Below, in pieces: positions 43,922 through 63,993 of a stretch of DNA of 64,000 nucleotides (position 1 is the stretch's first letter; each line of letters opens with the position of its first letter). The notes below the pieces were generated by a model, which was not told the DNA's origin, made no database searches, and saw nothing but the letters and a program-made list of their open reading frames with translations. The stretch is taken from assembly GCA_020850945.1 (NCBI GenBank), contig JADZDR010000052.1:1-64000 (forward strand). The letters run 5' to 3'. This stretch comes from Acidimicrobiia bacterium (GTDB lineage Bacteria > Actinomycetota > Acidimicrobiia > UBA2766). Position numbers and translations under genes: made by a program.

Positions 43922-46510
43922 TCAGGGCGCGACGTCGAAGAAGCGGAACTTGTCGACGAGAGGCATGTAGACGTTCGGGTAGACGGGTGGGGCGCTGCCG
44001 AACCTGTGCGTTCCACCCCAGCCGTCGAGGATGTAGCCGCTCACGACACTCGGGTTTCCGTCCGCGATGACGACGACGTCGCGGGCGATGTCCCAGTTCT
44101 TCCAGTAGGGGCCACCCGTCGGCTTCGCGGCGCCACCGAAGGGATGCAGGCCACCCCAGCCGTCGAGAACGACACCGGACCGGCCCGTCGGGTCGTCGGG
44201 ATCGAGGGCGATGCCGCGGGCGATCTCCCATCCGGGCCAGTAGGCCGAAGTACCCGGCTGGGGCTGGTTCCCGAAGGCATGCAGACCGCCCCAGCGGTCC
44301 ATCACGAGGCCCTTGGGGTCGGCGGCCGTCGAGACCGGTGAGAGCTCGATCTCGTGCGCTATGTCCCAGCCACGCCAATAGCCGCCCGGGGCGACGGAAT
44401 CGGTCTGGCCGAAGCGGTGGAGCCCACCGTAACCGTCGAGCACGTAACCGCCCGCCCCGTCCGGGTTGAGGGCGATCCCGCGGGTGATGTCCCAACCCTT
44501 CCAGTAGCCGCCGTTCTGGACGGCGGGGGCGTTGCCGATCGCGTGGATACCGCCGTAGCCGTCGAGCACGTACCCGCCGCCCCCCGGGTGCGCTGCGACT
44601 CCGCGCGCGATGTTCCAATTGGGCCACTGCGGGTGGGTACCCGGCGGCGACGACACCGCAGACGTGATGCCGTCCCACGTGACGGCATACGCGGACGCGA
44701 ACGGCTGGTCGCGTGTGGCGCCGGCGGCGACGGTCGTGGCGGCCGTTCCCGCCGCGCTCTTGTTCCCGGCGGCGTCAGTCGCCTGGACACGGAAGTCGTA
44801 CTGATGACCGGCGATACCGAAGAACTTCGCCCATCCCCCGAAGCTGCCGCCCGACGCGGTCTGGGGTGCCCTCGTGAGCCAGGTTGCCCACTGGCCCCCG
44901 TTGTCCCGCACGTCGACCGTGAACGACACGATGCCCGTCCCCTGGTCCGTCCCACTCCATGCCACGTCGAAACTCGTGTGCGACTGGGAAGGCGCCAGTG
45001 CGCCGAGTGCCGCCGTGGGGGGTGACTCGTCGAGGACTGTGCCGGTGCGTCGCGAGTTCTGCTTGAAGGTCGGCCAGTCAGCCCGGCCGAGTGGCTGTCC
45101 GCTGCGCCAGCGCCACACGGTGGGCACGTCTCCGAGTCCGCGTCGCCCGTCCGAATTGGCATCGAATATGCCGGCCTGGAGAATCCATGTCTCCCCGTTC
45201 ACCTGCGCGATCGTGGGTGCGGCCGGTGGCGCCCAAATGGCACCCATGGACGATTCGGCCTCGACGGCACCGGTCGCGCCGTCCATCACGCGCAGCACGT
45301 GCTCGCCGGCGCCGACAACCTCCTGCTGGCCGTCGTTGTCGACATCGGCGATCGAGAGAGAGCCGTGCACGCCGAAATCGCGGCGACAGGGTGTGTATCC
45401 GGTCGTGTTGCACCGGCTCCACAACTCCACGCCCGTCGCAGAATGGACATGCACGACTCCGTCCTCGGACATCGTCACGACCTCCTTGCCCGGGGTCGGA
45501 TGCAGGTCACCCACGGCGGGTGAGGCCATCACGTTGTCGCCGACGAATGCGGGCCAGCCCGGTAGATAGCTGCCGAAACGATCGAGAGCGTGAATTCGGT
45601 GTCCGTTCTCGGGCCTGTCGGCGAACATCGTTCCGGTTCCGAACACGATGTCGAGGGATCCGTCGCCGTTGATGTCCACGACAGCAGGCGTGGACCAGAT
45701 CGTCTGGCGGCCGGGGATCTCCTTGGGGAATCCCGGCTGCACGGACCCGTCATGGCGGATGACCCAGATGAGTCCCCCTGTGGCGTAGGGCTGGCCCGCG
45801 TACTCGTCCATATCCCCACCGAAGACGATCTCCAGCCAACCGTCCCCGTCGAGGTCGGCCACGGTGGGTGAGGACCACAGCGTGTCGAAGAGGAAGCGAG
45901 GGAAACCCGGTACGTAGCTGCCGTCGAGGTTCCAGGCGTGGATGAAGTGATCCCAGCTCGTCGCCACGATCTCCATCTGGCCGTCCCTGTCGAGGTCGGC
46001 CACGGTCGGCGTTCCGAACACACCGCGCCGCTCCATGTCACCGTAGAGTCCCCACGCGAGCTGCGCGAAGTGCTGGGCACAGTCGGTCCCCCGGAACACG
46101 ACCACCCAGCTCGTGAGCGCGTTGCCCACGAGGATGTCCAGCTTGCCGTTCTGGTCGAAGTCGAACAGCGTCGGGGACGACTGGATGTGGCCGGCGCCGC
46201 TGTCACAGCTCCTCACCTTGGCGCCGTTCACGTCGTAGATCCGCACGAACCCGTCCATGCCGCCAACGACGAACTCGGGTGCCGCGTCGCCCTGCACGTC
46301 ACCGACTGCGACCGCCGAGAACGACTCACTCGTCCCCCGGTCGAAGAACCGCCAGTACGGGATGTCCTGCATCTTCGTCATCGGTGTGAGCACGGTGGTG
46401 GCCGCCCGCGCGGGCACCGGAACGAGGGCGACGAGGAGTGTGACCGCGATGACGAGCGCGTCCCCTCGCGGCCGGGTGGATGGGGTACGACGCCAGGTGG
46501 CCAGGAACAT
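43922..46510 (-). CDS. Secreted FG-GAP/VCBS propeller protein with five W-D-I-A-R repeats
   Basis: 862 residues from the ATG at 46510, which gives a good signal peptide (V-I-A-V-T-L-L-V-A-L-V-P-V-P-A-R-A); an upstream GTG at 46582 is less likely. Residues ~45-470 are FG-GAP-type blades with calcium-site-like loops (D-F-D-Q-N-G-K-L-D, D-L-D-R-D-G-Q-M-E, D-L-D-G-D-G-W-L-E, D-I-N-G-D-G-S-L-D, D-V-D-N-D-G-Q-Q-E). A fibronectin/Ig-like domain (~495-590) follows. The C-terminal ~225 residues are five ~42-residue W-D-I-A-R repeats and a short closing strand. It is the first of five proteins here with that module. A glycan-binding or display role is inferred. Confidence 0.88.
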   Translation of the reverse strand: MFLATWRRTPSTRPRGDALVIAVTLLVALVPVPARAATTVLTPMTKMQDIPYWRFFDRGTSESFSAVAVGDVQGDAAPEFVVGGMDGFVRIYDVNGAKVRSCDSGAGHIQSSPTLFDFDQNGKLDILVGNALTSWVVVFRGTDCAQHFAQLAWGLYGDMERRGVFGTPTVADLDRDGQMEIVATSWDHFIHAWNLDGSYVPGFPRFLFDTLWSSPTVADLDGDGWLEIVFGGDMDEYAGQPYATGGLIWVIRHDGSVQPGFPKEIPGRQTIWSTPAVVDINGDGSLDIVFGTGTMFADRPENGHRIHALDRFGSYLPGWPAFVGDNVMASPAVGDLHPTPGKEVVTMSEDGVVHVHSATGVELWSRCNTTGYTPCRRDFGVHGSLSIADVDNDGQQEVVGAGEHVLRVMDGATGAVEAESSMGAIWAPPAAPTIAQVNGETWILQAGIFDANSDGRRGLGDVPTVWRWRSGQPLGRADWPTFKQNSRRTGTVLDESPPTAALGALAPSQSHTSFDVAWSGTDQGTGIVSFTVDVRDNGGQWATWLTRAPQTASGGSFGGWAKFFGIAGHQYDFRVQATDAAGNKSAAGTAATTVAAGATRDQPFASAYAVTWDGITSAVSSPPGTHPQWPNWNIARGVAAHPGGGGYVLDGYGGIHAIGNAPAVQNGGYWKGWDITRGIALNPDGAGGYVLDGYGGLHRFGQTDSVAPGGYWRGWDIAHEIELSPVSTAADPKGLVMDRWGGLHAFGNQPQPGTSAYWPGWEIARGIALDPDDPTGRSGVVLDGWGGLHPFGGAAKPTGGPYWKNWDIARDVVVIADGNPSVVSGYILDGWGGTHRFGSAPPVYPNVYMPLVDKFRFFDVAP
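43960..44637 (-). repeat. W-D-I-A-R repeat array, five units (FG-GAP protein)
   Basis: Units start at W-P-N-W-N-I-A-R-G, Y-W-K-G-W-D-I-T-R-G, Y-W-R-G-W-D-I-A-H, Y-W-P-G-W-E-I-A-R-G and Y-W-K-N-W-D-I-A-R. Each is followed after ~15 residues by V-L-D-G-(Y/W)-G-G-x-H. They are degenerate at DNA level, so the array is old. Confidence 0.9.
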
Positions 46511-46657: not shown

Positions 46658-47419
46658 TCAGACGGGCAGCCTGCGGAAAAGGGCGCGTGGCACGTGGCGC
46701 AGGCCGCTCATGACCCAGCGGATCGGGCCGGGGACCCACACGATCTCACGGCCCGAAGCGAGGCCCTCGCGGATGGCGGCGGCGACGTCCTCCGGATCCA
46801 CGGTGAGAGGCACGTCCTCCATGCCCTCTGTCATCCGGGTTCGCACCATGCCCGGCCGCACGATCATCACATGCACGCCCGTCCCGACGAGGGCGTCGCC
46901 GAGACCCTGGCAGAACCAGTCGAGGCCTGCCTTCGAGGACCCGTACACGTAGTTCGACCTCCGAGCGCGCTCGGCGGCGACGGTCGACAGGACGCAGATC
47001 GTGCCGTGGCCCTGTTCCTTCATGTGTTCGACCACCGGGTAGAGGACCGAGACGGCCCCGACGTAGTTGACCGCGATCAGGTCCATGGCGGCCTGTCGGT
47101 CGTGGTCGAGTCTCTCCTGATCGCCGAGGACGCCGAAGGCGACAAGGACGAGGTCGACGTCTCCCAGCACACCGAAGGCCTCCCGTACGAAGGACTCGTG
47201 TCCGTAGGTGTCGACCGCGTCGAACTGCCTGGTGTCGACCTGTGACGCACCGGCGGCGAGGAGTTCCTTGGCGTTGGCGTCAAGGCCCGCCACGTCGCGT
47301 CCCGCCAACACGAACCGGCGGGCGCCGCCACGTGTGAGCTCGAGAGCTGTCGCCTGGGCGATGTCCGAAGTCCCGCCCAGCACGAGAATCGACTGCACGG
47401 ATCCGAGAGCGTCCTGCAT
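46658..47419 (-). CDS. dprE2: Decaprenylphosphoryl-2-keto-ribose reductase (DprE2-like SDR)
   Basis: A 253-residue short-chain dehydrogenase. G-G-T-S-D-I-A-Q-A (residues ~15-23) is the NAD-binding loop in the form used by DprE2. Catalytic residues are Ser in V-L-S-T-V-A and Tyr/Lys in Y-V-Y-G-S-S-K-A-G-L-D. DprE2 reduces decaprenylphosphoryl-2-keto-erythro-pentose to decaprenylphosphoryl-arabinose. It lies 39 bases after DprE1 on the same strand, as in mycobacteria, which supports the assignment. Confidence 0.9.
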   Translation of the reverse strand: MQDALGSVQSILVLGGTSDIAQATALELTRGGARRFVLAGRDVAGLDANAKELLAAGASQVDTRQFDAVDTYGHESFVREAFGVLGDVDLVLVAFGVLGDQERLDHDRQAAMDLIAVNYVGAVSVLYPVVEHMKEQGHGTICVLSTVAAERARRSNYVYGSSKAGLDWFCQGLGDALVGTGVHVMIVRPGMVRTRMTEGMEDVPLTVDPEDVAAAIREGLASGREIVWVPGPIRWVMSGLRHVPRALFRRLPV

Positions 47420-47458: not shown

Positions 47459-48820
47459 TCAGCAGAGGTCGAGTCGCCTGGCCATGTCCGATCGGAGCAC
47501 CCCACCCGGGTCGAGCTTCGCGCGTATCTCCCGCCACTCGTCCAGACGCGGGTACATGGGGTGGATCACCCAGGGCTTGGCCCGCGATTCCTTCGCCAGG
47601 TAGAGGCGGCCACCGGCCTCGAGCACGACCTCGTCGAGCCCGTCACACAGTCCGGCGAGGCCCGGCATGCCGGCGGGCACGTCGAGCGTAAGGGTCCAGC
47701 CCGGCATGGGGAACGAGAGGTGTCCCGGATTCCCCGGTCCGAACCGCTTGAGCACGGCACGGAAGGACGGTGCACCGTGAGCGCTGAGACGCTCGACGGC
47801 CGTGCGCACGGCCGCCTCGCCCTCCGGGCCGTAGGGGACGACGAACTGATACTGGAGGAAACCGCGTGTGCCGTAGATGCGGTTCCAGCCGTGTACGAAA
47901 TCCAGCGGGTGGTGGAAAGATGCCAGGGGGACGATGGCACCCTCCTGATGCCGGGGCGCCTTCCTGAACCACAGCTCGTTGAACGCCCTGACCGACACCT
48001 TGTTCAGCAGGCCGTTGGGGAACCAGGGTGGAGCCGTCAGGACAGTCGACGGCTTGAACCCGAGCGGGTCGGAGCGCATCCGCGTGGGCAGCTCGTCGGG
48101 TTCGGCGAAGTCCCCCCGCGTGATCACGGAGCGTCCCATGTGGCTGCCTCTCGCCATGACGTCGATCCAGGCAACCGAGTAGTGGTAGTCCGAGTCGCGC
48201 TGCTCCATGCGGGACATGGCGTCATCGAGATCGGACGCCCGCTCGGTGTCCATGCGGATGCGGGAGGTCCGGATCCGTTTCATCCGCAATCTCGCCTGAG
48301 TCACCACTCCCGTCAGGCCCATCCCTCCGGCCGTCGCCCAGAAGACGTCGGGATCCCTGTCCGGCGTCACGTGCCTCGTTCCCTGCGGGGTCTCGAGCGT
48401 GAACGCCTCGACGTGGTTGCAGAAGCTGCCCACGCCGTGATGGTTCTTGCCGTGGACGTCCGCGGCGATGGCACCGCCGACCGTCACCTGGCATGTTCCC
48501 GGCGTGACCATGGGGAACAGGCCGAGGGGGACGAGCAGGCGCATGAGCTGCTCGAGGCTCACACCGGCGTCCACGGTGACTCCGGCGCCTTCGATGTCGA
48601 CGTCGTGTACGGCCGCGAGCTCCGTCATACGGAGGACGACTCCGCCGGCGTTCTGGGCTGCGTCGCCGTAGCTGCGGGCGAGGCCACGGGCGACGAGGCC
48701 GCGGTCGGGCGCCTCCGCGATCGCCTCACGGACATCGCCGGGGGAGTGCGGCTCCGCTACGCGGGTGGCCGTGGGGGCCGTCCCGCCCCAGCCCGTCAGC
48801 AGCTCGATGTTCTCATCCAT
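47459..48820 (-). CDS. dprE1: Decaprenylphosphoryl-ribose 2'-oxidase DprE1
   Basis: A 453-residue FAD flavoenzyme. The N-terminal FAD domain has R-G-L-A-R-S-Y-G-D-A-A, V-T-P-G-T-C-Q-V-T-V-G-G-A-I and V-H-G-K-N-H-H (His127-128 region). The substrate Lys of Y-L-A-K-E-S-R is conserved (Lys410). The residue equivalent to the mycobacterial benzothiazinone-reactive Cys387 (P-M-P-G-W-N-I-C) is Thr378 here (P-M-P-G-W-T-L-T; codon 47687-47689). The enzyme oxidises DPR in the cell envelope, and DprE2 completes the epimerisation. Its start overlaps the UbiA gene end by eight bases. Confidence 0.93.
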   Translation of the reverse strand: MDENIELLTGWGGTAPTATRVAEPHSPGDVREAIAEAPDRGLVARGLARSYGDAAQNAGGVVLRMTELAAVHDVDIEGAGVTVDAGVSLEQLMRLLVPLGLFPMVTPGTCQVTVGGAIAADVHGKNHHGVGSFCNHVEAFTLETPQGTRHVTPDRDPDVFWATAGGMGLTGVVTQARLRMKRIRTSRIRMDTERASDLDDAMSRMEQRDSDYHYSVAWIDVMARGSHMGRSVITRGDFAEPDELPTRMRSDPLGFKPSTVLTAPPWFPNGLLNKVSVRAFNELWFRKAPRHQEGAIVPLASFHHPLDFVHGWNRIYGTRGFLQYQFVVPYGPEGEAAVRTAVERLSAHGAPSFRAVLKRFGPGNPGHLSFPMPGWTLTLDVPAGMPGLAGLCDGLDEVVLEAGGRLYLAKESRAKPWVIHPMYPRLDEWREIRAKLDPGGVLRSDMARRLDLC

Positions 48821-49763
48821 TCACGTACACCCCGAGGGCGAAGACCGCGAGCCAGCAGAGGAAGGCGACCTGGAGGAACCGGTCACCCAGCACGACCTCC
48901 TCGGGCGCTCCACCATGGCCCTCTTCGAGTCGCATGGCGTAGCGGTACAGGGCGACGAGGAAGGGTGCGATCGAGAGCTGGTACCAGATCGGATGGTTCG
49001 CATCGCCGGCCTTCTCGAACGCCCAGAGGCAGTAGGCGACGATGGTCACAGCCGAAGCCGTCGTGCGGATGTATCCGAGGAACTCGGTCGAGTACTCCTC
49101 GAGGGACCGGCGATGTGACACGGCCGAGTCCCCCAACGCGACGTGCTCGGCGTAGCGCTTGCCGGTGACCATGAACAGCGACCCGAACGAGGTCACGATC
49201 AGGAACCATTCCGACAGCACGACGTCCGCGGCCGTGCCACCCGCGACCGCACGGAGGATGAACCCGGCCGCCACGAGCACGATGTCGATGATCGCGACGT
49301 GCTTGAGCCAGATGCTGTACGACGTCGTCGTCACCACGTAGACCAGGAGCGCGGTCGTGGTCTCGACGTTGACGAAGGTCAGCGTGAGGAGCACCGATCC
49401 GACCAGCAGTACTGCGGCGCACACGTAGGCAAGTGACACGGGAACCACCCCGGCGGCAATGGGGCGCAGTCGCTTCGTCGGGTGCACCCTGTCGGCCTCC
49501 ACGTCCATCGCGTCGTTCAGGAAGTACGTCCCGCTCGCGGCGAGGCAGAAGGCCACGAACGTGAGCACGACCCGCACGAGCGTGTCCGGATCCAAGAGGA
49601 CGGCTACGCCCGCCGCGCCGGGTGCGGCGAAGACGAGGACGTTCTTCACCCACTGCTTCGGACGCGCAGTCCGCAACAGCCCCGCGCCGACCGACATCGA
49701 GCGGGCAGGCTGAGCCGGGTCGGCGGTCGACACGTCTGTCATCTCCGTTGCCTTGGATGTCAT
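48813..49763 (-). CDS. ubiA: Decaprenyl-phosphate phosphoribosyltransferase (UbiA family)
   Basis: A 316-residue UbiA-superfamily membrane enzyme with about nine helices. R-P-K-Q-W-V-K-N-V-L-V-F (residues ~34-45) and the metal motif N-D-A-M-D-V-E-A-D-R (NDxxDxxxD) are as in mycobacterial Rv3806c, which transfers phosphoribose from PRPP to decaprenyl phosphate. The second motif region is Y-S-I-W-L-K-H-V-A-I-I-D-I. It starts the ubiA-dprE1-dprE2 operon. Of the DPA pathway only the phosphatase step is not visible here. Confidence 0.92.
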   Translation of the reverse strand: MTSKATEMTDVSTADPAQPARSMSVGAGLLRTARPKQWVKNVLVFAAPGAAGVAVLLDPDTLVRVVLTFVAFCLAASGTYFLNDAMDVEADRVHPTKRLRPIAAGVVPVSLAYVCAAVLLVGSVLLTLTFVNVETTTALLVYVVTTTSYSIWLKHVAIIDIVLVAAGFILRAVAGGTAADVVLSEWFLIVTSFGSLFMVTGKRYAEHVALGDSAVSHRRSLEEYSTEFLGYIRTTASAVTIVAYCLWAFEKAGDANHPIWYQLSIAPFLVALYRYAMRLEEGHGGAPEEVVLGDRFLQVAFLCWLAVFALGVYVNG

Positions 49764-50016: not shown

Positions 50017-51216
50017 ATGTCGTCGCTGCCAGCTGTGAAGACCAACCCGACTCGCACGAGAGCCCTCCTCGTCCTCGCCCTCGTGCTGCTGGGCGGCGTT
50101 GTCGTTCCGCCAAGCGGGTCAGCCTTCGCGACTCCCGCCGCGAGGCCGTACCGGGGGCCTGTCGAGCCGTATCAGCCCTACGCGGGCCAATCCACATGCG
50201 ATCCCACGCCGAAACCCGGGGTCGCGCAGTTCCGCAGTCTGATTCTGGCCGCATACCCCGGAACCGGCGCCGGGACCACCGAACGCGGCTGCAATTCCGG
50301 GGGCAAGTCGGAGCACAAGGAGGGACGTGCCTGGGACTGGGGGGTACGGGCGGATGTCCCGGCACAGAAGGCGGCCGCAGGGGACCTGCTCGAATGGCTG
50401 CTCGCGACGGACTCCGCCGGGAACGCGCATGCGATCGCCCGGCGCCTCGGTCTCATGTACGTCATCTGGGATCACCGGATCTGGAAGTCCTACCAGGCCG
50501 ACAAGGGCTGGCAGCAGTACACGGGGTCGAATCCGCACACCGACCACGTCCACTTCAGCTTCAGTTGGCCAGGTGCCCTCGGTCAGACCTCCTTCTTCTA
50601 CCCGACGGACTGGTTGCGCGGGTACGCCCTCAATCCGGCAAACCCGGCCCAGTTCTGGAAGCTGGATCTCTACGGGGCCATCGAAGGGTTCGGGGGAGCA
50701 CCGGACTTCGGCAATGCACCCAGATGGCCCGGCTGGGGCATAGCCCGTGACCTCGTGCCCCACCGGTCCGGTGCGTCGGCTTTCGTCCTCGACGGTTGGG
50801 GAGGGGTACATCCGGTCAACACCCAGGTCAGACCGCAATCGGGCCCATACTGGAAGGGATGGGACATTGCCCGCGGGTTCGCCCTCGTCTCCGACACCGA
50901 CGGCGTGATCGTCGACGGTTTCGGCGGGATCCATGCTGTCGGGAACCCCGCGAACGTGCACGTCAACGTGGCGGGGAGTCCGTATTGGAACAACTGGGAC
51001 ATCGCCCGCGACATCGTGCTGCTTCCCGACGCGAGCGGCGGTTACGTGCTCGATGCCTGGGGTGGCATCCATGCCTTCGGGCAGGCGCGCCCGGCGGTGT
51101 CGGGTCCCTACTGGCCGGGCTGGGACATCGCGCGTGACATACAGCTCCGCGCGGATCTCGTCGGCGGCTGGGTCTTCGACGGCTGGGGGGGAGTCCACTG
51201 GTTCTGGATCGGGTGA
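50017..51216 (+). CDS. Secreted M15-like metallopeptidase-fold protein with W-D-I-A-R repeats
   Basis: 399 residues from ATG 50017, which follows GGGAGGAG. Residues 1-38 are a signal peptide. Residues ~50-190 match the ARB-07466/D-Ala-D-Ala peptidase-like domain: the metal ligands His100 and Asp107 in S-E-H-K-E-G-R-A-W-D-W, and His174, His177, His179 in H-T-D-H-V-H-F-S-F. Such domains act on peptidoglycan stems. From about residue 210 come four full W-D-I-A-R repeats plus a partial one. The gene is divergent from the DPA operon and upstream of the exporter genes. Confidence 0.87.
   Translation: MSSLPAVKTNPTRTRALLVLALVLLGGVVVPPSGSAFATPAARPYRGPVEPYQPYAGQSTCDPTPKPGVAQFRSLILAAYPGTGAGTTERGCNSGGKSEHKEGRAWDWGVRADVPAQKAAAGDLLEWLLATDSAGNAHAIARRLGLMYVIWDHRIWKSYQADKGWQQYTGSNPHTDHVHFSFSWPGALGQTSFFYPTDWLRGYALNPANPAQFWKLDLYGAIEGFGGAPDFGNAPRWPGWGIARDLVPHRSGASAFVLDGWGGVHPVNTQVRPQSGPYWKGWDIARGFALVSDTDGVIVDGFGGIHAVGNPANVHVNVAGSPYWNNWDIARDIVLLPDASGGYVLDAWGGIHAFGQARPAVSGPYWPGWDIARDIQLRADLVGGWVFDGWGGVHWFWIG
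50650..51213 (+). repeat. W-D-I-A-R repeat array, four to five units (peptidase)
   Basis: Units start at R-W-P-G-W-G-I-A-R, Y-W-K-G-W-D-I-A-R-G, Y-W-N-N-W-D-I-A-R and Y-W-P-G-W-D-I-A-R, with a degenerate leading strand (L-D-L-Y-G-A-I-E-G-F-G-G-A-P) that could close a five-bladed ring. Confidence 0.88.
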
Positions 51217-51358: not shown

Positions 51359-52297
51359 ATGAACGCAGCCCCGTCTCCAGACAACGCGACCGCAGCGCGA
51401 GACACGTCGCTCATGCGTGTCAACGAGCCGACGAGGTTCTGGCGCGGCTTCGTCCCCTCGGTACGTGACGTCTGGCGCTATCGCGAGTTGCTCACGAACC
51501 TCACGCGTCTGCAGCTCAAGGTCAAGTACAAGAACTCGTCGCTCGGGTTCCTGTGGTCCCTCGCCCGCCCCATCCTTCTCCTCATCGTCTACTCCCTGGT
51601 CTTCTCGACGTTTCTGCGGGCCGGCATCCCCTACTTCCCCATCTACCTCTTCACGGGTCTGATCGTGTGGGACCTCTTCGCCTCGACGCAGGGGGGCGCG
51701 ACGAACGCGATCGTCGGGAACGCGGGCCTCATCAAGAAGGTGTACTTCCCCCGCGAGATCCTCACACTGTCCGTCGTCGGCTCCACGCTCTTTCACTTCG
51801 CCCTGCAGTTCCTGGTCCTCGTAGGCGTCCTCGTCGTGTTCCGCTACGACTTCCTCGGCTGGAACCTCCTCCTCGCGCCCATCGCGTTCGTCGCGCTGGT
51901 CTTGTTCATGACCGGGATCGCCTTCCTCTTCTCCGTGGCGAACGTCCGCTACAGAGACGTGCAACACATCATCGAGGTCCTGCTCCTCTTCTGGTTCTGG
52001 ATGACCCCGATCGTCTATCCGGCCGACTTCGCGATCTCCGGCCTGGGAGGGGTGTCCCGCGTCCTGGCGTGGGCCTACCAGTTGAACCCCATGTTCCCCA
52101 TCGTCACGGCCTTCCAGCGCGCGGCCTACAAGGACATGGACGCGGTCGCAGCCGACGGGACCCCCGTCCTGTACCAGGCCAGCGTCCAGCGTTACCTTGG
52201 GCTGCTCGGAATCGTGATCGCGTTCTCCCTGTTCCTGATCTGGCTCGGTCAGAGGGTCTTCGCCAAGGCCGAGGGCAACTTCGCGCAGGAGCTCTGA
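51359..52297 (+). CDS. wzm: ABC-2 type polysaccharide export permease (Wzm-like)
   Basis: A 312-residue permease with six predicted helices. The N-terminal amphipathic part R-E-L-L-T-N-L-T-R-L-Q-L-K-V-K-Y-K-N-S-S-L-G-F is typical of Wzm/TagG/RfbA exporters. The start may be ATG 51359 or ATG 51413; neither has a good ribosome site. Its stop overlaps the ATPase start by one base (TGATG). The pair exports a lipid-linked glycan across the membrane. The symbol is by functional type. Confidence 0.9.
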   Translation: MNAAPSPDNATAARDTSLMRVNEPTRFWRGFVPSVRDVWRYRELLTNLTRLQLKVKYKNSSLGFLWSLARPILLLIVYSLVFSTFLRAGIPYFPIYLFTGLIVWDLFASTQGGATNAIVGNAGLIKKVYFPREILTLSVVGSTLFHFALQFLVLVGVLVVFRYDFLGWNLLLAPIAFVALVLFMTGIAFLFSVANVRYRDVQHIIEVLLLFWFWMTPIVYPADFAISGLGGVSRVLAWAYQLNPMFPIVTAFQRAAYKDMDAVAADGTPVLYQASVQRYLGLLGIVIAFSLFLIWLGQRVFAKAEGNFAQEL

Positions 52298-53487
52298 TGA
52301 GCGCAGTCATCCAAGTCAAGGACCTCTCCAAGCAGTTCACCCTGCGTCACGACGCTTCACTCAAGGAGCGGGTCGTGAACCGGATTCGAGGCGCCAACAC
52401 GGACGAGACCTTCTGGGCGCTGCGGAACCTGTCCTTCGATCTCGAGCAGGGCAAGACGCTCAGTCTGATCGGCCCGAACGGCTCCGGCAAGTCGACGTTG
52501 CTCAAGATCATCGGCGGGATCATCGAGCCGACGGAGGGCTGGGTGGCGCGGCGAGGCCGCCTCGCCGCCCTCCTCGAGTTGGGCGCCGGGTTCCATCCCG
52601 ACCTGACCGGACGTGAGAACGTCTACGTGAACGCCAGCATCCTCGGCCTCTCGAACAGACAGATAGACAAGTACTTCGACGACATCATCGAATTCAGCGA
52701 GATCGAGAAGTTCATCGACAACCAGGTCAAGTTCTACAGCTCGGGTATGTACGTGCGGCTCGCGTTCTCCGTGGCGGTCCACGTCGAGCCCGAGATCCTG
52801 CTCATCGACGAGGTCCTCGCCGTGGGTGACGAGCCCTTCCAACAGAAGTGCATGGAGAGGATCAAGACCTTCCAGGACGAGGGACGCACGCTCGTGTTCG
52901 TCACGCACAGCCTCGACATCCTGCGCCAGTTCTGCGACGAGGCGATCCTGCTCGACCAGGGCAACGTCCTCGCCCACGGGCCCCCCTCGGAGGTCGTGAG
53001 CGAGTTCCGCGAACGGTTCCTTCCGCACCTCGAGGAGGAGGAGGACGAGTTCGGCACGCGTGAGGTCGAGATCAAGGGCCTCAGGGTCCTCGACGGAGAC
53101 GGGGTGGAGCGGGACAAGTTCAGCCCCGGCGACGACGTCGTCCTCGAGATCACCTATGACGCCCACGAGACGATCGCGGACCCGGTCTTCGGCATCGCGA
53201 TCCTGAACCAGGTCGACGCCCTCGTCTACGGCACGAACACGGACTTCCAGGGAATCTCGGTCGCGCGCGTCCACGGCGAGGGGATCGCGAGGTTCACGTT
53301 CCCGTCGATCCCCATCGTGGACGGCCGCTACTACGTGACGGTCGCCGTGCATTCGAGGGACGGCGAGGTCCAGTATCACCGCATCGAGCGCCTCGGACAG
53401 TTCCGTGTCGTCTCGGGCGCCGAGCACGCCGGTTTCCTCCACCTCGAACCCACCATCGACATCGTCGACAGGGAGTCGTCGGGTTGA
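52297..53487 (+). CDS. wzt: ABC polysaccharide export ATPase with C-terminal binding domain (Wzt-like)
   Basis: A 396-residue protein. Walker A is G-P-N-G-S-G-K-S-T, the signature is the divergent Y-S-S-G-M-Y-V-R-L as in TagH/Wzt, and Walker B is I-L-L-I-D-E-V-L-A-V-G-D. Residues ~245-390 form a beta-sandwich like the Wzt carbohydrate-binding domain, which recognises the modified end of the polymer. That makes the capping-type methyltransferases in this region candidate partners. Confidence 0.92.
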   Translation: MSAVIQVKDLSKQFTLRHDASLKERVVNRIRGANTDETFWALRNLSFDLEQGKTLSLIGPNGSGKSTLLKIIGGIIEPTEGWVARRGRLAALLELGAGFHPDLTGRENVYVNASILGLSNRQIDKYFDDIIEFSEIEKFIDNQVKFYSSGMYVRLAFSVAVHVEPEILLIDEVLAVGDEPFQQKCMERIKTFQDEGRTLVFVTHSLDILRQFCDEAILLDQGNVLAHGPPSEVVSEFRERFLPHLEEEEDEFGTREVEIKGLRVLDGDGVERDKFSPGDDVVLEITYDAHETIADPVFGIAILNQVDALVYGTNTDFQGISVARVHGEGIARFTFPSIPIVDGRYYVTVAVHSRDGEVQYHRIERLGQFRVVSGAEHAGFLHLEPTIDIVDRESSG

Positions 53488-55327: not shown

Positions 55328-55467
55328 CGGTACAGCAGACTGGGTACCCAACAAGCCTCCGGTGCCGCCCCGATCGACCCTTGTGGAGTGGCAAGTGCGG
55401 AGAGTGTAGCGTCACGTACGTGTTGACCCCCGTCAGGGGGAATCCGCCTCCAAGGAAGTGAGCAACG

Positions 55468-56466
55468 ATGACGCGTGCCTTGATCACGGGTGTCACGGGC
55501 CCAGACGGCATGTACCTCGCCGAGTTCCTCGTGGGCAAGGGATACGAGGTCTACGGGATGATCCGGGGCCAGAACAACCCCTTGGCCGAGAACGTCCGTA
55601 GATCGGTTCCCAGTGTGGAGCTCGTCGAAGGTGATCTCGGCGATATCTCCTCCCTCATAGGCGTGATGGAGCAGACGCAACCCGACGAGGTCTACAACCT
55701 CGGTGCCATCAGCTTCGTGGGCCTCTCCTTCAAGCAACCCGAGTTGACGGCGAACATCACAGGGCTCGGCGTCCTCCGCATGCTGGAAGCCATCCGGATC
55801 GTGGGTGGATCGGACGCGAATCCGATCCGCTTCTACCAGGCGTCGTCGTCCGAGATGTTCGGTCGTGTGCGGGAGACCCCCCAGACCGAGATGACACCGT
55901 TTCACCCCCGTAGCCCCTACGGGGTCGCCAAGGTGTTCGGTCACAACACGACCGTCAACTACCGGGAGGCGTATGGCATCTTCGCCTGCTCGGGCATCCT
56001 CTTCAACCATGAGTCGCCACGTCGGGGCCTCGAGTTCGTCACGCGCAAGATCAGCCACGCGGTTGCCCGTATCAAGCTGGGTCTGCAGGACTCGGTAGCC
56101 CTCGGCAACCTCGAGTCGAGCCGGGACTGGGGATTCGCCGGAGAGTACGTGGAGGCGATGTGGCTGATGCTCCAGCAGGACGAACCGGACGACTACGTGA
56201 TCGCAACGGGTGAGACGTACTCGATTCGGGAGTTCCTGGACCTTGCCTTCAGCCACATAGGAGTGGAGGACTGGGCGTCCTGCGTCGTCCAGGATGCACG
56301 CTACATGCGCCCCGCCGAAGTCGACCTGCTCGTGGGTGATGCCACGAAGGCCAAAGAGAAGCTCGGCTGGGAACCCCGGACGCCCTTCTCCGAGCTCGTC
56401 CGCATGATGGTCGAGTCGGACATCGAGGACCAGGCCAACAAGCTCGAGGAGAGCACGATCAGGTGA
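55468..56466 (+). CDS. gmd: GDP-mannose 4,6-dehydratase
   Basis: A 332-residue extended [15 protein letters not shown] is the cofactor loop, [10 protein letters not shown] the GMD signature, and S-S-S-E-M-F-G-R-V plus Y-G-V-A-K give the catalytic Thr/Ser-Glu, Tyr and Lys. [14 protein letters not shown] and [10 protein letters not shown] are further GMD markers. It converts GDP-mannose to GDP-4-keto-6-deoxymannose for fucose, rhamnose or similar 6-deoxy sugars. AAGGAAG precedes the ATG. It leads a four-gene run with the next gene overlapping by four bases. Confidence 0.94.
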
Positions 56467-57700: not shown

Positions 57701-57706
57701 GCCCGG

Positions 57707-58774
57707 ATGCCCACGAAGGCCCTGGTCCTGGCGGGTGGGAGCGGTACTCGACTGCGCCCGATCACCCACACCAGTGCCAAGCAACTCGTCCCTCTCGCGA
57801 ACCGGCCCATCCTGTTCTACTGCCTGGATGCGATCGCCGCGGTCGGCATACGTGACGTGGGGATCATCGTGGGGGAGACCGCGCCGATGATCAAGGACGC
57901 CGTCGGAGACGGAGGCGAGTTCGGCCTCGACGTCACCTACATCCACCAGGAGGCACCGCTGGGTCTGGGGCACTGCGTCCTGATCGCCCGGGACTACCTC
58001 GCCTCCGATCCGTTCATCATGTACCTGGGCGACAACTTCCTTGTCGACAGCCTGTCGAGCTTCGTCGAGGAGTTCGACACGACTCGGCCGAGTGCGCAGA
58101 TCCTGCTCAAAGAGGTCGAGGATCCACGCCAGTTCGGGGTCGCGATCATCCGGGACGGTGAAGTCGTGGGGCTCGTCGAGAAGCCTCCGGATCCACCGTC
58201 CAATCTCGCCCTGATCGGCGTCTACATGTTCGATGTGGCAATCCACGAAGCTGTGCGCGCGATCCGCCCCTCGGCACGAGGCGAGCTCGAGATCACCGAT
58301 GCGATCCAATGGTTGATCGAGCACGACCACGTCGTGAGGTCCCATGTCATAGAGGGAGACTGGATCGACACGGGGAAGCGCCAGGACATCCTGGCCGCGA
58401 ATCGCATCGTACTCGACCTGCTGAGGAGGGACCTCAAGGGCACGATGGATCCCGAGAGCCGCGTGGTCGGCCGGGTCGTCGTCGAGCCGGGAGCCAAACT
58501 CGTGCGCAGCGAGGTGCGAGGTCCGGCAATCGTCGGCACGGGGACGCAGTTGATCGACTCGTTCGTAGGCCCGTTCACGTCGATCGCCGGCAACTGCCGG
58601 CTCGAGGATTGCGAGATCGACCACTCGATCGTGCTCGAGGGATCGCGGGTGACAGGTGTGAAGCGCATCGCCGACAGCCTCATAGGTCGCGAGGCCACGA
58701 TCGAGCCTTCGACCGACCAGCCCCGCGCATATCGCTTCCTCGTGGGCGACCACAGTGAGATCCACCTGCCGTGA
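57707..58774 (+). CDS. rmlA: Glucose-1-phosphate thymidylyltransferase, long form (RmlA family)
   Basis: A 355-residue nucleotidyltransferase. L-A-G-G-S-G-T-R-L-R-P-I-T-H-T-S-A-K-Q-L is the nucleotide signature, Y-L-G-D-N-F holds the metal Asp, and V-E-K-P-P and G-D-W-I-D-T-G-K are donor-site motifs. The C-terminal ~110 residues form left-handed beta-helix turns, the mark of the long RmlA variant. It makes dTDP-glucose; no rmlB, C or D gene is in the window, so the product must feed genes elsewhere or a different sugar. Confidence 0.92.
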   Translation: MPTKALVLAGGSGTRLRPITHTSAKQLVPLANRPILFYCLDAIAAVGIRDVGIIVGETAPMIKDAVGDGGEFGLDVTYIHQEAPLGLGHCVLIARDYLASDPFIMYLGDNFLVDSLSSFVEEFDTTRPSAQILLKEVEDPRQFGVAIIRDGEVVGLVEKPPDPPSNLALIGVYMFDVAIHEAVRAIRPSARGELEITDAIQWLIEHDHVVRSHVIEGDWIDTGKRQDILAANRIVLDLLRRDLKGTMDPESRVVGRVVVEPGAKLVRSEVRGPAIVGTGTQLIDSFVGPFTSIAGNCRLEDCEIDHSIVLEGSRVTGVKRIADSLIGREATIEPSTDQPRAYRFLVGDHSEIHLP

Positions 58775-60069: not shown

Positions 60070-62112
60070 ATGTCCGTGCGGCCTGTGGCACCGACGAGAT
60101 CCCGACGCCTGGCGTGCGTGTCCTGCCTGCTGGGCGCGGTCCTCTTCGGCTCGAGCGCTCTGTCCGCCTCCGCCACGCCGAGCGATGTGCCCGAGCCCGT
60201 GGGAACACAGGAACCGAGCGCGGTCACACCCGAGGAGGCGGCCGCGGAGCGCATGCCTGCCGACGCCCAGGCCATGACCGAGATCGCCGAGGAGAATCCG
60301 GAGGCCCTGGATGCGGTGCCGACACACAAACTCGTCGTGACCGTGTCCGACGGCCAGACGGACACCGAGCTCGACGCAATCGCCTCCGAGCTCGGCGCAT
60401 CGTCAGTCGACGACCTGGGGCACGGAAGCGTGGCTGTCGAAGTCGCCGACCCGTTGTCAGTCGTCGAGGCAACCGAGGTGCTGGCGGACCTGGGTCCGGC
60501 CATCGCCGCAGTGGAGCCCGACCTCCCGGTCCTGCCCACCGCGGCTGTCAACGATACCTATCTCGGATCCCTCTGGGGCATGGGCACGGCGAAGTCCTTC
60601 GGAGTCGATCCGTCTTCCGCCTGGGCGGTCACAACCGGCGGGGGCGTGATCGTCGCCGTCGTCGACACGGGTGTGGACATCTACCACCCCGACCTGAGCA
60701 ACAACATCTGGGTCAACAGCGACGAGGTCGCCGGCAACGGGATCGACGACGACAGGAACGGGTACACAGACGACCGCTACGGTTTCGACTTCTACTCGAA
60801 CGACGCGAGCGTGTTTGATTCCGCCACCAACGACGCGCATGGGACCCATGTCGCGGGGACCATTGCCGGCGCTGCCAACAACGGTTTCGGGGTGGTGGGA
60901 GTCGCACCCCATGCCAAGATCATGCCCCTCAAGTTCATAAGCGGTTACGGCTACACGTCAGACGCCGTGAGAGCCATCAACTATGCCGTGGCAAACGGCG
61001 CCGACGTCATCAATGCGTCGTGGGGAGGGGGCGGATACAGCTCGACACTGAAGAGCGCCATCGACTACGCAGGCTCGCGAGGTGTCGTCTTCGTGGCGGC
61101 GGCGGGCAACAACGGGACGAACATAGACAGCAATCCGTACTACCCGGCAGCCCTGACGTCGGCGTCGCTCATCACTGTCGCAGCCATGACAGCCACCGGA
61201 ACGAGAGCCTCCTTCTCGAACTTCGGGTTGTCGTCAGTCGATATCGCGGCACCAGGTGAGTCGATCCTGTCGACCGTGCCGGGTGGTGGCTTTGCCTACT
61301 ACTCGGGTACTTCAATGGCCGCCCCACATGTGAGTGGCATTGTTGCCCTCGTGAAGTCATTCCGGCCCAGCTACAGTGCATCACAGGTCAAGAACATGGT
61401 TCTTGCCGGTTCGCTACCGAATGGCTCCTTCGCGGGGCTGGTCGCGACAGGTGGCATGGCGAATGCCCCGAGGTCTCTGCAGTGGTTGCCACCTTACTGG
61501 TGGGGCTGGGACATCGTGAGGGGTGTGGCCATGTCGCCGACCGGAGTCGGTGGATATACGTTTGACGGATGGGGTGGGATCCATGCCTGGCACGATGCGC
61601 CGGCAGCGGCAACGTCCAACGCGCCGTACTGGGTGGGCTGGGACATCGTGCGGTCCGGAACCGTGGTTTCGGGGAACGGCGGTTTCACACTCGACGGGTG
61701 GGGAGGGATACACGCCTGGGGTGGCGCGAGTGCAAACCGGACAGGTGCGCCATATTGGCGAGGCTGGGACATAGCGCGGGGCATGGCTGTCAACACCGAG
61801 GGATCGGGTGGATGGACACTCGACGGCTGGGGTGGCATTCACGCCTGGGGTGGCGCTCCGTCCGCTGGGCGGACACCCTATTGGCCCGGTTGGGACATAG
61901 CGCGGGGTATGGCTGTGAACACCGAGGGATCGGGTGGATGGACGCTCGACGGCTGGGGTGGCATTCACGCCTGGGGTGGTGCACCCGTCCCCGTGGATGG
62001 GCCCTACTGGAAAGGCTGGGACATCGCCCGCGGCCTCGACATCAGCGCCGACGGCAAGACCCTGTACATCATCGACGGCTGGGGCGGATTACACCCAGCG
62101 CATCTCCCCTGA
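60070..62112 (+). CDS. Subtilisin-like (S8) protease with five W-D-I-A-R repeats
   Basis: 680 residues from ATG 60070, with GAGGAGA ten bases upstream. A signal peptide (1-~38) is followed by a propeptide-like I9 region (~85-150). The S8 domain (~165-455) has the full triad: Asp199 in V-V-D-T-G-V-D, His257 in H-G-T-H-V-A-G-T and Ser415 in S-G-T-S-M-A-A-P-H. The C-terminal ~205 residues are five repeats; units 3 and 4 are nearly identical in DNA. The stop codon directly abuts the stop of the convergent amidase gene (62112/62113). Confidence 0.93.
   Translation: MSVRPVAPTRSRRLACVSCLLGAVLFGSSALSASATPSDVPEPVGTQEPSAVTPEEAAAERMPADAQAMTEIAEENPEALDAVPTHKLVVTVSDGQTDTELDAIASELGASSVDDLGHGSVAVEVADPLSVVEATEVLADLGPAIAAVEPDLPVLPTAAVNDTYLGSLWGMGTAKSFGVDPSSAWAVTTGGGVIVAVVDTGVDIYHPDLSNNIWVNSDEVAGNGIDDDRNGYTDDRYGFDFYSNDASVFDSATNDAHGTHVAGTIAGAANNGFGVVGVAPHAKIMPLKFISGYGYTSDAVRAINYAVANGADVINASWGGGGYSSTLKSAIDYAGSRGVVFVAAAGNNGTNIDSNPYYPAALTSASLITVAAMTATGTRASFSNFGLSSVDIAAPGESILSTVPGGGFAYYSGTSMAAPHVSGIVALVKSFRPSYSASQVKNMVLAGSLPNGSFAGLVATGGMANAPRSLQWLPPYWWGWDIVRGVAMSPTGVGGYTFDGWGGIHAWHDAPAAATSNAPYWVGWDIVRSGTVVSGNGGFTLDGWGGIHAWGGASANRTGAPYWRGWDIARGMAVNTEGSGGWTLDGWGGIHAWGGAPSAGRTPYWPGWDIARGMAVNTEGSGGWTLDGWGGIHAWGGAPVPVDGPYWKGWDIARGLDISADGKTLYIIDGWGGLHPAHLP
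61483..62109 (+). repeat. W-D-I-A-R repeat array, five units (protease)
   Basis: Units 3 and 4 (61762-61859 and 61888-61985, period 126 bp) differ at only a handful of positions over ~98 bases, several of them silent, showing recent duplication or gene conversion within an otherwise diverged array. Confidence 0.92.
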
Positions 62113-63993
62113 TCACCATGTGTGGACTCCACCCCACACGTCCGTCGTGTAGCCCGATGCCCCACCCCACGCCGGCTCGGACGGGATGTAGGACTGGGCG
62201 AACTCACGGCCGAGCCAGTAGGGATGCCCGCCGGGTTGGGGCGCGCCGCCGAAGGGATGGAGACCTCCCCATGCATCGAGGACCCAGCCGCCCGGGCCGG
62301 AGGGATTGAGGACCAGATCGCGGGCGATGTCCCACCCCGGCCAGTACGGAGCGCCGCTCGCGTTCAACGGGGGTGCGCCACCGAAGGAATGCAGCCCACC
62401 CCAACCATCCAGGACCCAGCCGCCGGGGCCGGACGGGTTCAAGGCGAGAGCCCTCGCGATGCTCCACGGCTTCCAGTACGGACCCCATCGTGTGTCGACG
62501 GTGGCACCTCCCCACGTGTGCAGGCCACCGAAGCCATCCAAGGTCACCCCGCCCGTACCTGTGGGGTCGCGTGCGATGTCCCACGCGATGTCCCACCCGT
62601 GCCAATACGGTGCACCTGCCCGGTTGACACTCGCGCCACCCCAGGGGTGAATGCCACCCCAGCCGTCGAGTGTGACACCACCATTCGACGCCGGGTCGCT
62701 CGTCACCCCTCGGGCTATCGCCCAGAGGTCCCAGTACGGAGGCTGAGGATCGACCGCGAGGGGAGGTGGTTTCTGGAGGAGAATCGGCCAGCGGGCGGCG
62801 ATCCTGTTCGCGAGGTCCGGGATGCGCACGTACAACTGGGAGCCGGGGCAATCCGTCGCCGAGGCGTCTTGGTGACCCGACACATTGCGCATGAGGACGG
62901 GTGTCCCGGCCGGCCACTTGGTTCCACCCTGGCTCTCGATCCACGTCTGCCCGGCCGGCCAGACGTTGTGGATGCTGAGCTTCCAGAGCAGGATCGATTC
63001 GAACGCCGCCATTGCCTCCGCGGACGGTGGAACCGAGATGTGGGAACCGAGAACGGAGACGCCTGTGGAGTAGGTGTTGAAACCTCCGGCGTGGGCGCCG
63101 ATCACCGAGTTCTGAACTCCTCCGAAGCGCCCTTCGAAGATCTGTCCGTACTTGTCGACGAGGAAGTTGTACCCGATGTCGTTCCATCCTCTGGAGAAGA
63201 CGTGATAGGAGTAGATACCCCGGATTATCCCTGCCGACTGGGAAGGTGAGTAGTCGTTCGAGCCTTCTGTGTGATGGACGATGCCTATCTTCACTTGGCC
63301 GTAGCTGGGTGGTGCTGCCCGCCAGCTCTCGTCCGCACCCCATTGCGCCCGTGTGATGATGTTCGGGAACGCACCTGCCTCGTCGGACGAGCCCTTGAAG
63401 ACCGCCGCGAGGGCGTCGAAGATCCGCTGGGGCACGGATCGTGCCGACCCGTCGAGATCGAGGAAGGCAACCTCGAGGCTCCGGGGATCACCTGCGGATT
63501 CGAGCTGCACCCACCTCGACGGTCCCGTGTAGACAGGAGGGCTCCCGGGTCGGGCCGGATTCCTCTTTCCCGTGTCGGACTCGCCATCGGGGACGTCGCC
63601 GGAGTCGAACGTCACAGTGAACCACTGTCCCCAGGACTTGCCGTCCACACTCGTCCGCACTCGTGCACTTCGAGGCAATTGGCCCTCGGTGTCGGCGGTG
63701 AATCCCAGCATCTCGAAGTCGAGGGAGGCCGGGAATACCACGGAGAATTGGTCCTCGCCCGCCACCTCTGCCACCGATACGCTCACTTCGGCATCATCCG
63801 CCGACTGCGACAGATCGGAGGAGCTCCTGCGTTCGACATGCGCGCCTGCCACCAGTTGCGCCAGATCCTCCTGCTCGATGGTGGGCGGAAACTCGGTGGC
63901 ACCGGCCGGCTGGACTGGGAGTCCGACGAATCCGAGGAACACGCCGAGCAACGTGAATCCGATGGTGAGGCGCACAGGCAGCTTGCGTTGCAT
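62113..63993 (-). CDS. PGRP-type N-acetylmuramoyl-L-alanine amidase with W-D-I-A-R repeats
   Basis: 626 residues from the ATG at 63993; an in-frame TTG at 63999 and any start beyond the window cannot be excluded. Residues 1-33 are a signal peptide. Residues ~60-190 are a beta-rich domain. Residues ~205-410 are an Amidase_2/PGRP domain: R-A-Q-W-G-A-D-E-S-W, zinc His in I-V-H-H-T-E-G, N-D-I-G-Y-N-F-L-V-D, G-A-H-A-G-G-F-N and S-G-H-Q-D-A-S-A-T-D-C-P-G. The C-terminal ~210 residues are five repeats. It should cleave or bind peptidoglycan at the surface. Confidence 0.93.
   Translation of the reverse strand: MQRKLPVRLTIGFTLLGVFLGFVGLPVQPAGATEFPPTIEQEDLAQLVAGAHVERRSSSDLSQSADDAEVSVSVAEVAGEDQFSVVFPASLDFEMLGFTADTEGQLPRSARVRTSVDGKSWGQWFTVTFDSGDVPDGESDTGKRNPARPGSPPVYTGPSRWVQLESAGDPRSLEVAFLDLDGSARSVPQRIFDALAAVFKGSSDEAGAFPNIITRAQWGADESWRAAPPSYGQVKIGIVHHTEGSNDYSPSQSAGIIRGIYSYHVFSRGWNDIGYNFLVDKYGQIFEGRFGGVQNSVIGAHAGGFNTYSTGVSVLGSHISVPPSAEAMAAFESILLWKLSIHNVWPAGQTWIESQGGTKWPAGTPVLMRNVSGHQDASATDCPGSQLYVRIPDLANRIAARWPILLQKPPPLAVDPQPPYWDLWAIARGVTSDPASNGGVTLDGWGGIHPWGGASVNRAGAPYWHGWDIAWDIARDPTGTGGVTLDGFGGLHTWGGATVDTRWGPYWKPWSIARALALNPSGPGGWVLDGWGGLHSFGGAPPLNASGAPYWPGWDIARDLVLNPSGPGGWVLDAWGGLHPFGGAPQPGGHPYWLGREFAQSYIPSEPAWGGASGYTTDVWGGVHTW
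62116..62750 (-). repeat. W-D-I-A-R repeat array, five units (amidase)
   Basis: Units start at Y-W-D-L-W-A-I-A-R-G, Y-W-H-G-W-D-I-A-W, Y-W-K-P-W-S-I-A-R, Y-W-P-G-W-D-I-A-R and Y-W-L-G-R-E-F-A-Q. The last unit ends the protein with D-V-W-G-G-V-H-T-W. Confidence 0.9.

Follow-up and report, generated by a model that had tools for sequence, protein, structure and literature searches.

A predicted beta-propeller module on unrelated secreted proteins of Acidimicrobiia, encoded beside a Wzm/Wzt glycan locus: a possible surface address tag

Genes of the locus

The window (the whole 64,000 nucleotide stretch that was analysed) carries genes for glycan synthesis and export, together with five genes whose products share an array of repeats of ~42 residues, here called the module. 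The features were as follows.

33336..35729, minus strand: YfhO-like membrane protein, candidate extracytoplasmic glycosyltransferase
35726..37288, minus strand: GT4-type glycosyltransferase (41–47 % identity at nine loci in eight genomes, beside module genes)
37081..38310, minus strand: GT4-type glycosyltransferase (46–53 % identity at nine loci in eight genomes, beside module genes)
42027..43043, plus strand: GT42027, GT4-type glycosyltransferase (61–66 % identity at nine loci in eight genomes, beside module genes)
43922..46510, minus strand: FG-GAP protein with C-terminal propeller (ATG at 46510; array coded at 43925–44716)
46658..47419, minus strand: DprE2 (NF053786, above cut-off)
47459..48820, minus strand: DprE1 (NF053785, above cut-off)
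48813..49763, minus strand: decaprenyl-phosphate phosphoribosyltransferase, UbiA family (NF008978, above cut-off)
50017..51216, plus strand: secreted M15-like protein with C-terminal five-unit array (50608–51213)
51359..52297, plus strand: Wzm, ABC glycan-export permease (ABC2_membrane)
52297..53487, plus strand: Wzt, ATPase with C-terminal Wzt_C domain (PF14524 and PF00005)
53525..55354, minus strand: glucose/sorbosone (PQQ-type) dehydrogenase (GSDH) with N-terminal five-unit array (54602–55222)
55468..56466, plus strand: GDP-mannose 4,6-dehydratase family protein
57707..58774, plus strand: sugar nucleotidyltransferase (PF00483)
60070..62112, plus strand: subtilase (S8) with C-terminal five-unit array (ATG at 60070; array 61489–62109)
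62113..63993, minus strand: PGRP/Amidase_2 protein with C-terminal five-unit array (62116–62742)

Three further module genes, 0.3–8.9 kb beyond the window end, encode a glucosaminidase-like protein, a CAP-like protein and a YkuD L,D-transpeptidase with two arrays, giving nine arrays across eight genes (five inside the window and three shortly past it). The five secreted proteins reported in the first-pass annotation were all recovered with their arrays, but the true number of genes is eight; signal sequences and export were called by eye on the N-termini of these eight local proteins. The placing of DPA synthesis and Wzm/Wzt near the module genes was confirmed by NCBIfam equivalogs for DprE1, DprE2 and the phosphoribosyltransferase and by the ABC2_membrane and Wzt_C domains. 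Wzm resembled the galactan export Wzm model, far under its cut-off (92.9 vs 380 bits).

Pfam supported four of the five distinct partners first proposed in the window (FG-GAP, GSDH, Peptidase_S8 and Amidase_2). The M15-like partner had no match in Pfam or NCBIfam and nothing convincing in the PDB (best E 0.49), and its pattern SxHxxGxAxD ... HxDHxH is one that we take to resemble M15. The description of all partners as enzymes had to be dropped on account of FG-GAP, which is not one. Among the eight local partners, four (the PGRP amidase, the glucosaminidase-like protein, the L,D-transpeptidase and the M15-like protein) look peptidoglycan-active.

No family for the repeat was found in Pfam or NCBIfam, and no description of a YWxGWD propeller module was found in the open-access literature. 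A profile search of the genome itself (3.9 Mb, E ≤ 10) returned the same nine arrays and no others, all on contig JADZDR010000052.1, with E-values of 2e-79 to 9e-93; since the profile was built from these nine arrays, the outcome tells of absence elsewhere in the genome and not of significance.

Sortases were present in 23 of 24 genomes (own and related), which counts against retention by the module. The eight local module proteins do not look like sortase substrates, as none had an LPxTG motif or a fitting C-terminal membrane segment, the sole hydrophobic window beyond residue 120 (by hydropathy) lying in the GSDH domain.

Predicted fold and conserved loops

Each local array has five units, where four arrays of five and one of four plus a partial unit had been proposed. 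Two of these units are degenerate (unit 1 in the M15-like protein and unit 5 in the GSDH protein), and the FG-GAP array gains a half-unit at each end. Where tandem arrays adjoin, they share a unit at the edge, and some six- and seven-unit counts are therefore one too high.

AlphaFold2 predicted a five-bladed beta-propeller of 15 strands for the subtilase array (pLDDT 95.2, pTM 0.91). The FG-GAP array, owing to its half-units, was six-bladed in the model, with 18 strands and one blade split (best model pLDDT 90.1, pTM 0.90; pLDDT 76 to 90 over five models). DSSP assigned three strands per blade in the array models, with an irregular fourth. Ring closure was judged from the unit count and from structural matches to solved propellers, namely 3qqz (Z 14.1, rmsd 3.7, 185 aligned) and 6i39 (Z 18.2, rmsd 3.4, 225 aligned). 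The closed five-bladed ring suggested at first pass is thus what the model of the subtilase array predicts, but not that of the FG-GAP array. In a viral structure library, the matches listed were headed by RCC1-like and WD40-like proteins, and the best PDB sequence match to the repeat was the PknD propeller (E 0.026). Tachylectin-2 did not figure among the structural matches listed, which does not speak against kinship.

Conservation peaked at a mean of 2.16 bits in YWxGWD, the D-A' loop, and reached 1.70 bits in GWGG, the B-C turn, compared with 0.54 bits in the A-B loop. Within the unit, values were Y 0.87 and W 0.64 at positions 1–2, and G 0.50 and W 0.47 at positions 4–5. In canonical propeller topology, the D-A' loop and the B-C turn lie on one shared face, and tachylectin-2, a five-bladed propeller, carries GW in its D-A' loop, as do the module units. 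In tachylectin-2 and PVL this motif helps to form the sugar pocket, according to PMC8023676. The aromatic and glycine conservation of the repeat may instead have a structural cause.

It is unlikely that the propeller acts as a protein–protein module that builds a surface complex from the secreted proteins or binds a common wall protein. The conserved motifs are rich in aromatic residues and glycine and share a D-A' loop GW with sugar-binding propellers, which argues against such a role. In its favour, propellers often bind proteins, and one of the two partners recurrent by Wzm/Wzt is an FG-GAP scaffold.

Related propellers and a sister repeat

No significant sequence match linked the module to tachylectin-2, which the first-pass annotation had named as an example of a five-bladed ring. 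Module arrays did not match the Tachylectin model (PF14517), which had no matches in the whole genome, and profile comparison with a single actinobacterial tachylectin sequence was not significant (E 0.18; FG-GAP and GSDH controls, E 0.39 each). The relevant parts of PMC8023676 (Pereira and Lupas 2021) assign bacterial tachylectin-like propellers to the VCBS supercluster and describe features that, with tachylectin-2, they share with the module: near-equal repeats, secretion and, in the bacterial ones, frequent joining to catalytic domains. The module differs in having six-bladed forms and in its linkage to Wzm/Wzt, neither of which those parts describe for tachylectin-like propellers. The bacterial tachylectin-like groups of that paper could include the module.

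A six-unit repeat of Acidimicrobiia, 'GYWLVASDGGIFSFGDA', was homologous to the module in profile comparison (227 columns, 97.4 %, E 1.6e-11). It is likewise borne by secreted proteins, e.g. subtilases, but each of its five aligned arrays has six units, and the YWxGWD loop is absent. A few marginal Pfam matches were obtained in one of three arrays scanned (e.g. RCC1_2, 22.2 bits vs a cut-off of 22), with a weak match to HERC2 RCC1 (E 0.00027); nothing was concluded from any of these. Mutual exclusion of the two repeats was not significant, the absence of shared genomes (8 and 22 of 149) comparing with 1.2 expected (p 0.27). The repeat lay beside Wzm in three of 20 Wzm neighbourhoods, which was not counted as linkage since its genomes hold up to 110 matches.

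Partner domains and position of the module

The module had been proposed to be mobile, and this held: among 100 module ORFs, taken from stop to stop and with three or more units each, it lay at the C-terminus in 78 and at the N-terminus in 10, the remainder having fewer than 100 residues on either side (11) or at least 100 on both (one). Seven of the eight local proteins end within the array or just after it. The 93 partner pieces represented 68 Pfam families, the 25 listed including GH18, CHAP, C39, S8, PQQ and fibronectin type III domains.

Linkage of the module to glycan genes in other genomes

Flanks of module loci were compared for the best 80 of 179 confirmed stretches (75 loci), many of them on short contigs, so that their flanks are incomplete. 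The comparison genes were mechanically chosen ORFs, with Wzt and one glycosyltransferase added because this choice had missed them, and without the eight module genes and ORF 72693–74027 (which overlaps a module gene and matched one locus, of its own genus). The flanks matched 13 of 17 glycan-locus genes vs two of 57 other contig genes, with the bounds of the glycan locus drawn after the matches were known. At least one of eight core glycan genes was present in the flanks in 12 of 30 genomes. At L090, a homologue of the YfhO-like protein (42 %) lay between UbiA-DprE1-DprE2 and a module gene.

Two module proteins recurred near glycan genes. In other genomes, relatives sharing 42–66 % identity with the partner region of the FG-GAP protein lay close to Wzm or GT42027, and relatives of the PGRP/Amidase_2 protein adjoined Wzt. 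FG-GAP-propeller and PGRP-propeller genes flanked Wzm/Wzt in four other genomes. In two of these loci (L124 and L125) the order was FG-GAP-propeller, Wzm, Wzt, PGRP-propeller on one strand, and L123 and L029 had the same four genes in other orientations. In the window itself, the M15-like gene precedes Wzm by 142 bp and shares its strand.

Such an arrangement might be expected if the FG-GAP- and PGRP-propeller proteins were parts of glycan assembly, e.g. joining the exported glycan to peptidoglycan, with the other tagged proteins as later copies reusing a wall-binding domain. The FG-GAP-propeller gene ends an estimated ~50–125 bp before Wzm on the same strand (L124, L125/L038 and L073; from match ends), the PGRP-propeller gene follows Wzt (L124, L125 and L126), and PGRP/Amidase_2 acts on peptidoglycan. 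No ligase-like domain was recognised, however, and a PGRP relative near Wzt in one genome (G095) lacks the YWxGWD repeat, and this reading is considered quite improbable.

In a tool-drawn sample of 149 genomes of the class, eight carried the module, and Wzm adjoined a module gene in five of these, own genome counted. Stretches no more than 5 kb away from a module match made up 1.5 % (G051), 0.3 % (G146), 4.2 % (G035) and 3.4 % (G077) of the other Wzm-linked genomes; these shares and the match counts are low estimates, as candidates of rich genomes were only partly scored class-wide. Wzm is frequent across the class anyway (112 of 149 genomes). At E 1e-60 or better, a threshold picked after the list was seen, it was found in five of eight module genomes vs 12 of 141 (p 0.0005; own genome removed, four of seven, p 0.003). 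DprE1 was also commoner in module genomes (seven of eight vs 56 of 141, p 0.010); neither set of p values takes account of shared ancestry.

Modules away from the glycan locus

Where a genome is rich in modules, the majority of them lay at a distance from the glycan locus; G035, for example, had at least 33 matches, and two of 18 places adjoined Wzm. Among the matches listed for 18 other genomes, 10 never had Wzt and module together on a contig and an eleventh lacked any Wzt match, though some of these absences may reflect the length of the listing; these genomes were hand-picked, some being already known to be linked, and the seven of 18 that were linked do not give an unbiased rate. Wzm-Wzt without a module nearby was found on contigs of two genomes (G167 C23 and G169 C75), and Wzm/Wzt of the same type lacked the module in 20 of 20 neighbourhoods drawn from module-free genomes. 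EGI L10123 (locus L051), which may be an isolate, has Wzm/Wzt with no module nearby. The predicted co-occurrence with Wzm/Wzt-DPA loci recurs in distant genomes, with glycosyltransferases included, but is not universal. The module is indeed scattered, but largely in genomes that have glycan export genes: Wzm matched in seven of the eight module genomes of the class sample and Wzt in 17 of the 18 others, although Wzm is widespread in the class in any case.

The many modules away from the locus, and GH18, CHAP, C39, S8, PQQ and fibronectin type III among the partners, are what would be expected of a general carbohydrate or surface binder directed at external targets (glycans of plants or microbes, walls of prey), comparable to a CBM, the linkage to Wzm/Wzt then reflecting the clustering of envelope genes. 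This reading is regarded as somewhat unlikely, given that three GT4s, Wzm and Wzt recur beside modules in several families, that the FG-GAP-/PGRP-propeller genes flank Wzm/Wzt, and that half of the local partners appear to act on peptidoglycan.

Discussion

The bacteria considered here are mostly represented by metagenome assemblies. We know of no account of how they hold proteins on their surface. The occurrence of the same domain on eight proteins and its recurring adjacency to a glycan pump suggest that it may be an address tag for the sugar coat. We put the probability at about 0.5 that a lectin-like propeller keeps secreted proteins on the glycan exported by Wzm/Wzt. The repeat would close into a five- or six-bladed lectin-like beta-propeller; proteins with signal peptides and unrelated working domains (peptidoglycan hydrolases and a transpeptidase, a protease, a dehydrogenase, an FG-GAP scaffold) would leave the cell by general secretion, and would be kept on the envelope by binding of the propeller's repeated face to the glycan of the linked GT4 / Wzm-Wzt / DPA locus. 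The recurrent pair of FG-GAP-propeller and PGRP-propeller, which travels with Wzm/Wzt, may help to place or fix this glycan on the wall; glycan binding and retention, like the identity of the glycan and the role of the pair, are inferred.

More tentatively, these proteins may belong to a dedicated glycan-addressed display, in which a propeller lectin co-evolving with the Wzm/Wzt glycan sorts unrelated secreted proteins, ~8 to 20 in number, onto the cell envelope in Acidimicrobiia, in Dormibacterota-labelled bacteria and in related ones, the FG-GAP-/PGRP-propeller proteins being recurrent core parts and sister groups using a homologous six-bladed tag.

The locus has the same glycan enzyme set (Wzm/Wzt, DprE1/E2, UbiA) as mycobacterial galactan/arabinan export, for which no propeller-tagged proteins are known to us. 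Other systems offer partial parallels. SLH domains are reported in PMC6081394 to be repeat domains common to exported proteins that they hold on a wall glycan. The module resembles such anchoring in that one domain occurs on many exported proteins and is genetically linked, not universally, to glycan synthesis, but the fold of SLH domains, which bind secondary cell wall polymer, differs. In the T9SS of Bacteroidetes, a common C-terminal domain is reported on ~30 cargo proteins attached to a surface polysaccharide (A-LPS); unlike what is proposed for the module, that system involves covalent transpeptidation and a dedicated secretion machine.

If the address-tag reading is true, secreted proteins that stay on the envelope would be recognisable by a repeat that has no family in Pfam or NCBIfam, and their receptor would be indicated by the locus. 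Many hypothetical proteins would acquire a role, and the beta-propeller would be added to the means by which proteins are known to be kept on wall glycans.

Module genes and arrays

All five module genes reported in the first-pass annotation were found, with the architecture described there. Three further module genes lie on contig C52, which carries the window, within 9 kb past the window end:

glucosaminidase-like module protein (match just under the Pfam cut-off)
CAP-like module protein (match just under the Pfam cut-off)
YkuD L,D-transpeptidase with two arrays

The contig carries nine arrays of five units each (unit length mostly 35–46 residues), and at E ≤ 10 a profile of these nine matched nothing more in the 3.9 Mb genome. 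The repeat matched no family in Pfam, or in NCBIfam when the five window proteins were scanned. The genome also encodes a sortase, a point against the glycan-tag reading, although LPxTG was absent from the module proteins of the contig. A small secreted-looking protein with no Pfam match is encoded at 43079–43690 of the window, between a glycosyltransferase gene and the FG-GAP gene.

Predicted fold and activity

The repeat is predicted to form a propeller module of the lectin-like type. The subtilase array was modelled with AlphaFold2 from an alignment of 54 other arrays (four from the window and 50 from fetched loci), giving a compact model of 15 strands in five blades (pLDDT 95.2, pTM 0.91). 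Among the structural matches listed the closest were β-propellers (3qqz: Z 14.1, rmsd 3.7, 185 aligned), and designed Pizza6 and PknD were also among the best. The closed five-bladed ring proposed earlier is predicted for this array, but not for that of the FG-GAP protein, which has a B-C half-unit before its five units and an A strand after them; its best model had 18 strands, whose order gives six blades, one of them the classical split blade (mean pLDDT 76–90 over five models). Blades were counted in 121 arrays (window, L009 and loci L022–L096) as the larger of the A-strand and B-C hairpin counts, giving five in 46, six in 54, seven in seven and three or four in 12, some sixes and sevens being overcounts where tandem neighbours share an edge unit; counts of 10 or 12 in two arrays represent unsplit tandems. 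As models and counts give both numbers, the arrays have either five or six blades and are not fixed at five.

The most conserved loops of a 679-unit profile were D-A' (YWxGWD, 2.16 bits per position) and the B-C turn (GWGG, 1.70); the A-B loop (0.54) and the stretch after strand C (0.84) were less conserved. The D-A' loop and B-C turn lie on one face in the canonical propeller topology. Sugar binding would be the likeliest activity, because the conserved loops share a face and the GW motif has a parallel in tachylectin-2 and PVL. According to Pereira and Lupas (PMC8023676), a GW motif of the D-A' loop contributes to the sugar pocket in both lectins, and bacterial tachylectin-like propellers occur in secreted proteins with catalytic domains.

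Distribution and the six-unit sister repeat

The module (E ≤ 1e-12) was found in eight of 149 sampled genomes of the class. Relatives occur in records labelled Acidimicrobiia/Acidimicrobiales/Actinomycetota, Dormibacterota, Chloroflexi and unnamed bacteria, plus one record each under Myxococcaceae and Verrucomicrobiales and a genome deposited as Bifidobacterium breve; these are depositor labels of draft assemblies, and some are probably wrong. The assignment of the window to Acidimicrobiia is itself drawn from labels of this kind on genomes of its class. Partner pieces of module proteins (93) fell into 68 Pfam families, most commonly FG-GAP, S8, an ACSF4-type propeller model, GH18, Amidase_2, CHAP, PQQ and CAP.

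Weak module-profile matches in other Acidimicrobiia came from a sister repeat with six units (GYWLVASDGGIFSFGDA); profile comparison shows the two to be homologous (97.4 %, E 1.6e-11), and the sister repeat is likewise carried by secreted proteins. None of the 149 genomes had both repeats (module eight, sister 22), but an overlap of just 1.2 would be expected (p 0.27). Sister-repeat matches were spread over many contigs (at least 110 in genome G058, 65 in G086 and 59 in G089). Locus L100 (G031 C2:19069-22386) encodes a protein that looks secreted and, by eye, glucosaminidase-like; its repeats seem to fall between the two types.

Linkage to Wzm/Wzt and glycan genes

The M15-like module gene of the window lies on the same strand as Wzm and stops 142 bp upstream of it. 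Seventy-four non-module genes of the contig were compared with the flanks (up to 8 kb) of 75 module loci, from 30 genomes by record prefix, at ≥40 % identity and at least half coverage. Fifteen matched flanks in other genomes: 13 of the 17 lying at 32.2–60 kb, an interval set after the matches were known, versus two of 57 outside, each in one locus. The top recurring genes were three GT4-type glycosyltransferases (eight genomes each), Wzm (seven), Wzt (six) and UbiA (four), and 12 of the 30 genomes had one or more of eight core genes there, one of these genomes (QWHP) sharing the genus studied here.

Among the sampled class genomes, the top Wzm match adjoined a module gene in this genome, G035, G051, G077 and G146, but not in G031 (divergent array) or G095; G080 had no Wzm match at E ≤ 1e-12. 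The G080 and G095 assemblies are drafts in roughly 500 and 470 contigs. The share of the genome lying no more than 5 kb from a module match, a low estimate, was 4.2, 1.5, 3.4 and 0.3 % in G035, G051, G077 and G146, with a product of 7e-8, although G035 and G077 share a genus and are not independent. FG-GAP-propeller and PGRP-propeller genes flank Wzm/Wzt in loci L124, L125 (also L038), L123 (also L047) and L029, two glycosyltransferase genes separating the FG-GAP gene from Wzm in L123 and L029; in L126 Wzt is followed by a PGRP-propeller gene. At L073:5948-8759, on a 3.0 Mb contig, an FG-GAP-propeller gene lies in two frames (frameshift or sequencing error). At L127:2578-4827 (G095), 3.7 kb away from Wzt, a PGRP relative ends in a different repeat of about 70 residues ('VYVDGVG'), as if its tag had been swapped.

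Several results argue against a general linkage. Among the matches listed for 18 other module genomes, partly picked for linkage, Wzt (E ≤ 1e-40) and a module match lay on one contig within 10 kb in seven (G154, G160, G161, G162, G163, G164 and G168), of which G164 appears to repeat the G077 genome and the G154 Wzt has just 36 % identity. Among the same listed matches they were not on one contig in 10, and G158 had no Wzt match. G167 C23 and G169 C75 have Wzm-Wzt with no module in the stretch examined, and two of 18 module places in G035 adjoin Wzm.

The glycan and a proposed role of the module

DprE1, DprE2 and UbiA scored over NCBIfam cut-offs and Wzt has a Wzt_C domain; with Wzm and the GT4 enzymes, this suggests that the locus makes a lipid-linked polymer that leaves the cell by the ABC route. 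The polymer may carry pentofuranose added outside, like mycobacterial arabinan and the three-component systems described in PMC11127046.

Each part belongs to a known kind, and no description of their combination was found in the open-access literature searched. Judged from gene neighbourhoods, several lineages show a genetic tie between the module and an ABC-exported glycan, and the best reading of the module, at about even odds, is that it would act as a tag on that glycan.
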